Positions 33,691 to 35,408 of a stretch of DNA of 63,432 bases are shown piece by piece; position 1 is the stretch's first letter, and each line of letters begins with the position of its first letter. Source of the stretch: Candidatus Poseidonia sp. (GTDB taxonomy: Archaea > Thermoplasmatota > Poseidoniia > Poseidoniales > Poseidoniaceae); the NCBI GenBank assembly GCA_030829545.1, contig JAURAI010000004.1, positions 1-63,432 on the forward strand, read 5' to 3'. The notes under the pieces are model-generated. The model worked only from the letters and a program-made list of their open reading frames with translations. It was not told the origin of the DNA and searched no databases. The position numbers and the translations under genes were made by a program.

Positions 33691-33780
33691 GGTGTCCCGA
33701 CCCCTTCTGCTTAATTCTATTTTTTCCCGTAATATGGGGCTGAGGGATTCATCGATGAACTCAAGAGTCAGTCTCAGGCA

Positions 33781-33790
33781 TATTTATTAA
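33781..33790 (+). promoter_or_regulatory. TATA box of the RHH-fumarase gene
   Basis: TATTTATTAA is centred 28 nt before ATG 33813, so transcription should start at the start codon of the N-terminal ribbon-helix-helix segment. That supports the fused reading frame. A downstream fumarase-only start has no such box. Confidence 0.6.
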
Positions 33791-33812
33791 ACGCCTTCCC
33801 CGAGTTGAAATC

Positions 33813-35408
33813 ATGGCTAAACACCGTGCCGGCGACCGCCGAATTATGAGCATCAGTATTCCCGAAAGCCTCGCCAAAAAACTGGACCGAAAGGTCGGCA
33901 AAGGCCGTGAAGACGGCCGCTCTGCTACCATCGCCCGCTTGATTCAGCAAGGACTTGAAAGCCAAGCCTCAACCATCCCCACTCCTCCATCACAGTCCCT
34001 GCGAGCCGAAGCGCCAGATGGCGAGGTTCGCATCGAGTCAGACACGATGGGCGAACTCAAGGTACCTGCTGACCGCTATTACGGATGCCAGACCGCTCGG
34101 TCGCTGCTGAATTTTGACATCGGCCACGACACGATGCCCACGGGAGTTATCCGAGCCTTTGGCGTATTGAAACAAGCGGCTGCAAAAACCAATGTCGCCC
34201 TCAAGCAGTTGGACCCAGAGGTCGGAGACCTCATCATTGCTGCTGCTCAAGAAGTGAGTGATGGGCACCTCAACGATCACTTCCCGCTTCGCGTTTGGCA
34301 AACTGGAAGTGGTACGCAATCCAACATGAACACCAACGAGGTCATCGCTAACCGAGCCATCGAAATCGCTGGAGGAGAACTGGGCTCCAAGTCCCCTGTC
34401 CATCCCAACGACCACGTCAACCGAGCACAGTCCTCTAACGACACCTTTCCCACGGCCATGCACATTGCGGCCGCTGAAGCCTTCACGCACAGATTGCTGC
34501 CGAGTGTGCGGGCATTGCGTCAGGCACTTGCTTCCAAAAGCGAGGACTGGAAGAATGTCGTAAAGATCGGTCGTACGCACCTCATGGACGCCGTACCACT
34601 CACGCTCGGTCAAGAAGCATCAGGGTGGGTTGCACAATTGGACGCTGATCTTCGGCGCCTTGATTTCGCACTCGATGACCTGTTTGAATTGGCTCTGGGC
34701 GGTACTGCGGTTGGAACGGGACTGAACGCTCATCCCCTCTTTGCCCAAATGGTGGCTGACGAGATTGCCAACATTACCGGCCTGACTTTTTGTTCAGCGG
34801 AGAATAAATTTGCACAATTAGCGGCACATGATGCCGTTGTTGCCGCATCAGGCGCCTTGAACACCCTTGCAGTGTCCTTGATGAAAATCGCCAACGACAT
34901 TCGTTGGTTGGGCTCTGGACCACGTTGCGGCTTCGGCGAATTAGCCCTTCCCGCTAACGAGCCTGGGTCTTCGATCATGCCCGGTAAAGTCAACCCCACA
35001 CAAGCCGAAGCGATGACAATGGTCTGCTGCCAGGTCATGGGAAATCATACCGCCATTACCGTTGGCGGCAGTCAGGGGAATTTCGAACTCAACGTGTACA
35101 AGCCGATGATGATCCACAACCTCTTGCATTCCGTCGACCTCCTTACCGATGCCTGCAGAACCTTCCGTACACGCTGCGTGGAAGGTTTGGAAGCCGTGGA
35201 AAGCAACATTCAATCCCATCTCGAGAACTCCTTGATGCTGGTGACGGCACTCAACAACCACATTGGCTACGACAAAGCGGCCAAGATTGCAAAGAATGCA
35301 CATGAGAAGGGAACAACCCTTCGTGAATCTGCATTGGAATTGGACTTTTTGACCAACGAAGAATTTGACGCTTGGGTTCGCCCTGAAGACATGACGGGCA
35401 CTTCGTAA
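33813..35408 (+). CDS. fumC: class II fumarase with N-terminal ribbon-helix-helix domain
   Basis: 531 residues. Residues 9-49 match a CopG/NikR-type RHH DNA-binding domain: strand [10 protein letters not shown], helix [12 protein letters not shown] and helix [18 protein letters not shown] Ser/Pro linker (about 50-68) joins it to a complete class II fumarase from about residue 70, with [65 protein letters not shown] and the signature [11 protein letters not shown] (about 385-395). The family normally has about 465 residues without this extension. The TATA box 28 nt before the ATG supports the long start. It catalyses fumarate/malate interconversion. The added domain could make it DNA-binding. 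Confidence 0.93.

Follow-up and report, generated by a model that had tools for sequence, protein, structure and literature searches.

The window analysed here is the whole stretch of 63,432 nt from the Candidatus Poseidonia sp. contig, and the locus of interest is a single 531-aa frame on its forward strand (33813-35408), in which a class II fumarase follows an N-terminal extension (Table 1). The earlier note on this DNA had claimed a full-length fumarase sharing one open frame with the extension through a Ser/Pro linker, and both claims were borne out: the frame was free of internal stops in translation, and the linker was located at approximately residues 50-71. In the Pfam search of the whole protein, Lyase_1 was matched at residues 80-410 (E 6e-111) and FumaraseC_C at residues 476-529. 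The NCBIfam equivalog model fumC_II (TIGR00979) was matched at residues 72-528 with 759.5 bits, above its cut-off of 664.75. The nearest solved chain was 6n1m, a fumarate hydratase class II, which aligned with residues 71-528, and the translation contained an 11-residue match to GSSxMPGKxNP, which we take to be the class II fumarase signature. On these matches the frame encodes a complete class II fumarase, with enzymatic activity and a homotetrameric state predicted.

Table 1. Features of the fumarase locus, in window coordinates.
Feature	Position	Strand	Basis
Conserved promoter element ATATTTATTAAACGCC with TATA core TTTATTAA (33783-33790); candidate operator	33780..33795	+	Rarity and conservation
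RHH (CopG-type) DNA-binding domain with basic N-terminal arm	33813..33959	+	Residues 1-49 of the fumarase; RHH_1 match, 20 invariant columns, hhalign
Ser/Pro-rich variable linker	33960..34025	+	Residues 50-71; mostly no majority residue (alignments A2, A3)
Class II fumarase catalytic part and stop codon	34026..35408	+	Residues 72-531; fumC_II above cut-off, 6n1m, signature

The RHH_1 profile was matched by residues 13-49 of the window protein over profile positions 3-38 of 39, which include the strand and both helices. The score within the whole protein was 17.0 bits (E 0.0059), under the gathering score of 20.5, and N-terminal pieces of 86, 53 and 72 aa scored 21.0, 21.5 and 20.5 bits, barely reaching that cut-off, so that the window protein by itself is a marginal match. 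The RHH assignment is nevertheless firm because the family members match throughout: RHH_1 was found in 24/24 and 58/58 aligned relatives at E values up to 1 (best 7.9e-06), and no family had more matching members among the relatives scanned. A profile built from the 58 sequences aligned with five standalone archaeal proteins, all five of them RHH_1 members, with an hhalign probability of 93.4%. AF2 placed helices at residues 18-28 (or 18-27) and 38-50 (or 36-49), with low confidence over the domain; the monomer model was weak (mean pLDDT 63.8), with two helices where expected and no strand. The strand of an RHH unit forms only in the dimer. No PDB match was obtained by Foldseek with the AF2 domain model. 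The domain call of the earlier note, made from pattern only, is thus upheld by the RHH_1 profile, the family-wide matches and hhalign; of the checks that it had proposed, the profile search agreed with the call, and the structure prediction gave two low-confidence helices and no strand. From these comparisons the fumarase carries a genuine RHH domain on a flexible tether, for which DNA binding is predicted.

A total of 59 related genomes, including the window genome, were searched for the domain. The domain occurred in 45 of them, in each case within the fumarase frame, and in both families of Ca. Poseidoniales. Ten genomes had a fumarase lacking the domain (G001, G018, G022, G023, G026, G028, G030, G031, G034 and G050), one (G011) had a fumarase fragment too partial to tell fused from unfused, and three (G009, G024 and G038) gave weak matches to other lyases only. 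A second domain piece of 46 aa, running off the contig end (G029:C16), was found in G029. One genome (G005) holds both a fused (L014) and an unfused (L051) fumarase, and another (G028) two unfused copies (L019 and L052). In a collection of named genomes, where the best 80 of 140 domain-encoding loci were examined, the domain continued in frame into fumarase in 80/80, with an early stop after entry into the fumarase sequence at two loci (L070 and L142). The named loci cover Poseidonia, Thalassarchaeum, Thalassarchaeaceae, Poseidoniaceae, Poseidoniales, Marine Group II, 'Euryarchaeota archaeon' and 'uncultured euryarchaeote'. The search for the fusion in relatives was therefore positive, and these 80 loci rule out a fusion unique to the window genome or a misassembly. 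Across the phylum, 145 genomes were sampled and 69 gave a match; of these, the 34 that lie outside the class all failed to align with residues 1-41. As the fusion is order-wide and was unmatched outside the class, the domain is a trait of one order in these samples.

The TATA box that had been described ahead of the ATG at 33813 was found as TTTATTAA, whose first base lies 30 nt upstream of this codon. A spacing of about 30 nt from the TATA box fits a leaderless start, and the transcript therefore probably begins at or next to the ATG. The window holds a single exact copy of TTTATTAA, against a chance expectation of 0.45 (39 of 100 shuffles held at least one); at one copy per 63 kb, it is unlikely to be the general TATA box of this genome. 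Eighty fused promoters with 120 nt of upstream sequence were compared, comprising the window and 79 of the named loci; L100 was left out because too little sequence preceded its start. In 76 of these, TTTATTAA was present at 7 or 8 of 8 positions, starting 29-33 nt before the start codon, and 70 were exact; in the remaining four, the best core match lay elsewhere, at 35-44 nt. When 78 promoters were aligned on the core, its eight columns carried 1.7-2.0 bits, the next eleven 0.5-1.3 bits and most of the flanks less than 0.3 bits. The common extended form is TTTATTAATAACTAATTA.

With two or fewer mismatches allowed, 26 of 63 genomes have TTTATTAATAACTAATTA at the promoter of the fumarase gene (10/14 and 16/49; in G029, at the contig-end copy). 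This corresponds to 26/46 fused versus 0/17 unfused genomes, with only 6 sites elsewhere in all 63. Nine of the 20 fused genomes lacking TTTATTAATAACTAATTA at this threshold form the window's sub-clade, all nine searched members of which lack it (G000, G003, G004, G006, G008, G012, G013, G020 and G025); the others are G032, G033, G035, G043, G048 (where the site is masked), G054, G057, G159, G171, G177 and G181. A site with three mismatches was present at the fumarase in G035, G171, G177 and G181, a threshold at which many chance sites occur in AT-rich genomes, as they did with reversed controls. The sub-clade form ATATTTATTAAAYGCC, with one or fewer mismatches, gave one site per genome in 9/14 genomes, each at the fumarase, and these nine are the window genome and eight close relatives. 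Both loci of genus g4 retain a core, TTTAATAA at -30, and only the extension is missing.

A compensating dyad in the 18-mer was not supported: the extended element is only a rough dyad, in which compensating changes were absent and another centre scored equally. The perfect 12-bp palindrome TTCATCGATGAA (33748-33759, upstream of the TATA core) was set aside as an operator because no copy was seen by eye in the upstream sequences of the sub-clade. Additional TTTATTAAT..-type copies were noted farther upstream of the fumarase in L039 and L153. Three such sites lie near the fumarase in G041 with two or fewer mismatches, in a duplicated and partly masked stretch, and three in G177 at three mismatches.

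A FastTree phylogeny of the catalytic part was built from 63 Poseidoniales proteins (45 fused and 18 unfused). The fused or unfused state required 6 changes on this tree; shuffling the labels 300 times gave 15.8 on average and never fewer than 11. The base of the clade was reconstructed as fused. The core TTTATTAA, at 7 of 8 positions or better and no farther than 60 nt from the start, was present in 42/43 fused and 0/18 unfused loci; L003 (too short) and L045 (masked) were left out of this count. In five unfused loci (L019-L023) about 50 nt separate the end of a topoisomerase IB match from the catalytic part, a spacing that is 275-297 nt in four fused relatives (L005, L060, L065 and L095). 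By comparison of these spacings, a single predicted deletion took both promoter and domain in L019-L023, and the fumarase presumably became part of the topoisomerase transcript. No topoisomerase was found in the available flanking stretch of the other 13 unfused loci. The joint loss of core and domain matches what self-regulation predicts, yet adjacency alone could produce it, since promoter and domain are neighbours and one deletion can remove both. An unfused clade of the g16 type (L051, L052, L151, L152 and L155-L159) shares, by eye, roughly GNGAACNGTGAAGAAGTNC in the last 60 nt before the ATG, and this sequence may be a replacement promoter or regulatory element.

The combination of a built-in RHH domain with a conserved promoter element of its own points to a fumarase that governs its own synthesis. 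Observed here are the fusion with its age and conservation, an element specific to this gene, and the joint loss of element and domain. Building on these observations, autogenous regulation of the RHH-fused fumarase, similar to that of PutA, is the best reading, with a probability of about 0.6; binding, repression and ligand sensing are presumed in it. The RHH units of the fumarase oligomer would pair into dimers, and these would bind the element, which overlaps the TATA box of the same gene and in most relatives also extends beyond it on the downstream side. RHH units sitting there would hinder TBP/TFB or RNA polymerase, so that fumarase would limit its own synthesis. DNA binding, repression as the sign of the effect and any control by fumarate or malate are expectations of this model. 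The proposal of the earlier note that the enzyme might regulate its own gene has gained indirect support, in that a conserved, gene-specific element is absent where the domain is absent; the binding itself is a prediction. The note's other suggestion, that the enzyme could report the fumarate/malate state to gene expression, is speculative. Counted against autogenous control are the 20/46 fused genomes, including the window's sub-clade with its unchanged predicted-strand residues, that lack the extended element at two or fewer mismatches. The roughness of the dyad, the adjacency of promoter and domain, the weak AF2 domain model and the lack of a Foldseek match were weighed on the same side.

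Under another explanation, which we regard as unlikely, the RHH domain does bind DNA while the element belongs to another factor, basal or a separate regulator, and the domain acts on other genes or holds fumarase near the chromosome. The core sits at the expected TATA position (29-33 nt ahead of the start codon), and its conservation might therefore be due to TBP/TFB alone; moreover, in the window's sub-clade the predicted-strand residues are unchanged despite the altered element. Against this, the element is not a general promoter sequence, since TTTATTAA occurs once in 63 kb and hardly any further sites of the long form exist in the genomes, and element and domain are absent together in 18/18 unfused loci.

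It is less probable again that the N-terminal unit has lost DNA binding and that its RHH fold serves oligomerisation, stability or contact with a protein partner. Such a role would agree with the dimerising nature of RHH units and with the oligomers that the catalytic part of class II fumarase forms. However, 20 columns are invariant in the 58 sequences (including H4, R5, G7, R9, R10, I11, S13, S15, P17 and E18), and among them are the basic arm (H4, R5, R9 and R10) and, facing outward on the strand, S13 and S15, roles that we assume from RHH-DNA structures. An oligomerisation role alone also leaves the promoter element unexplained.

The linker, in contrast to these invariant columns, has no majority residue over most of its length (alignments A2 and A3). 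Pairwise dN/dS within the genus came to approximately 0.075 over 46 codons of the domain and 0.028 over 300 codons of the enzyme, values that are rough because they come from 87/153 usable pairs with synonymous sites near saturation. These estimates indicate that the domain is under purifying selection, though weaker than that on the enzyme. That the extension is an annotation artefact and translation begins near residue 70, as the fumarase does in 10/59 related genomes, is scarcely credible, given the order-wide conservation of residues 1-49, their dN/dS of 0.075 and a TATA core positioned for the upstream ATG. The fusion in 45/59 genomes and in all 80 examined loci (the best 80 of 140), the 20 invariant columns and the variable linker likewise argue against a start-codon artefact. 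A protein start near residue 70, which the earlier note had named as the outcome that would overturn its claim, is thus contradicted for the window gene, while ten of the 59 relatives are unfused; amino-acid conservation across the order and purifying selection point to a real, translated fusion.

The autogenous reading has a precedent in trifunctional PutA, in which an N-terminal RHH domain makes the enzyme an autogenous repressor of its own genes (PMC5293562); the window protein shares with it an N-terminal RHH domain on a metabolic enzyme. It differs from PutA in having fumarase instead of PRODH/P5CDH, an archaeal promoter whose TATA box coincides with the element, and no flavin or membrane switch. 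The window protein is not itself a PutA, as Pfam gave only Lyase_1, FumaraseC_C and RHH_1, and PRODH and P5CDH were absent. Like FumC, it is over residues 72-531 a full fumC_II member above the equivalog cut-off, with solved homologues. Unlike the solved FumC homologues listed, it carries an RHH domain: among the 45 distinct solved sequences listed (E up to 1e-100), no match starts before query residue 47, and none shows this domain. The domain resembles CopG-type RHH regulators in its RHH_1 match in 58/58 family members and its alignment to standalone archaeal RHH proteins, and differs from them in being part of an enzyme, in a conserved 10-residue arm before the strand and in the lack of a close standalone copy in the 59 genomes. 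The search of these genomes for such copies gave nine weak matches (E 0.003-0.04), five of which (alignment A5) were separate RHH_1 proteins. A conserved family of standalone RHH proteins was observed in f2 genomes (L170-L174); its members are about 120-140 aa long, and their second half is conserved as well. To our knowledge, enzymes with their own DNA-binding domain are rare and PutA is the standard example. No published report of a fumarase-RHH fusion was found in a search that reached few subscription papers. An RHH-bearing enzyme that regulates its own gene was already known; the fumarase, the archaeal host and the TATA-box element are new to us.

A sister family of the same class, f3, which is probably Marine Group III, offered a comparison. 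A fumarase was matched in 18/21 f3 genomes, and all 18 matched loci had a different conserved N-terminus of about 100 residues. This N-terminus was not identified by any Pfam, NCBIfam or PDB profile, and a shallow alignment of it gave no hhalign link to the RHH domain described here or to the standalone RHH proteins, so that homology to RHH was not detected by profiles or hhalign. Its start (YTSIRVTKEV..., followed by two likely helices) resembles strand-helix-helix by eye, and in the 145-genome phylum sample it was confined to the three f3 genomes included. Two TATGCA-N3-TGCATA boxes (0-2 mismatches of 12) were present in the 150 nt upstream in 18/18 f3 loci (L186-L203), with a spacing of 17 bp in 17 loci and 28 in one, and by eye they directly precede a TATA-like sequence. 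In 17 f3 genomes searched, the exact copies listed were all at the fumarase. Eight one-mismatch boxes lay elsewhere, in 7 of the 17 genomes, all of them inside open frames and one at a start codon; because of this position, none looks like a second promoter target. A single one-mismatch site was also present in the window genome, on a contig other than that of the window. At the one f3 locus that was read (L187), no regulator gene lies beside the fumarase; its neighbours resemble what we take, from sequence, to be an inositol-phosphatase-like protein, an aldo-keto reductase and an acyl-CoA-synthetase-like protein.

As read from the sequences, the f3 boxes are the clearest candidate operator in the data. 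The f3 fumarase shares with that of the window its class, a conserved N-terminal extension and a nearly fumarase-specific promoter element, and differs from it in a ~100-aa extension unrecognised as RHH and in having two TATGCA-N3-TGCATA boxes, not the TTTATTAA element. The boxes raise the odds of fumarase self-control in the class, the f3 DNA-binding domain being putative; that the family with the clearest boxes has an N-terminus that no profile identifies as RHH was also counted against autogenous control.

A broader proposal, which we consider rather doubtful, is that fumarase is its own transcription factor throughout the class Poseidoniia. The RHH domain would close the TATA region in one order, and the f3 domain, independently acquired or strongly diverged, would read two boxes 17 bp apart, matching two DNA-binding dimers per tetramer, with fumarate or malate gating the binding in both groups. 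If the proposal is true, an enzyme of the citric acid cycle would sense its own flux across the class. Relatives that are naturally fused or unfused, among them G005 with both forms, offer ready-made controls. A core enzyme of this cycle with its own DNA-binding domain, retained throughout an order of abundant, uncultured archaea of the surface ocean, would tie central carbon flux directly to gene expression.
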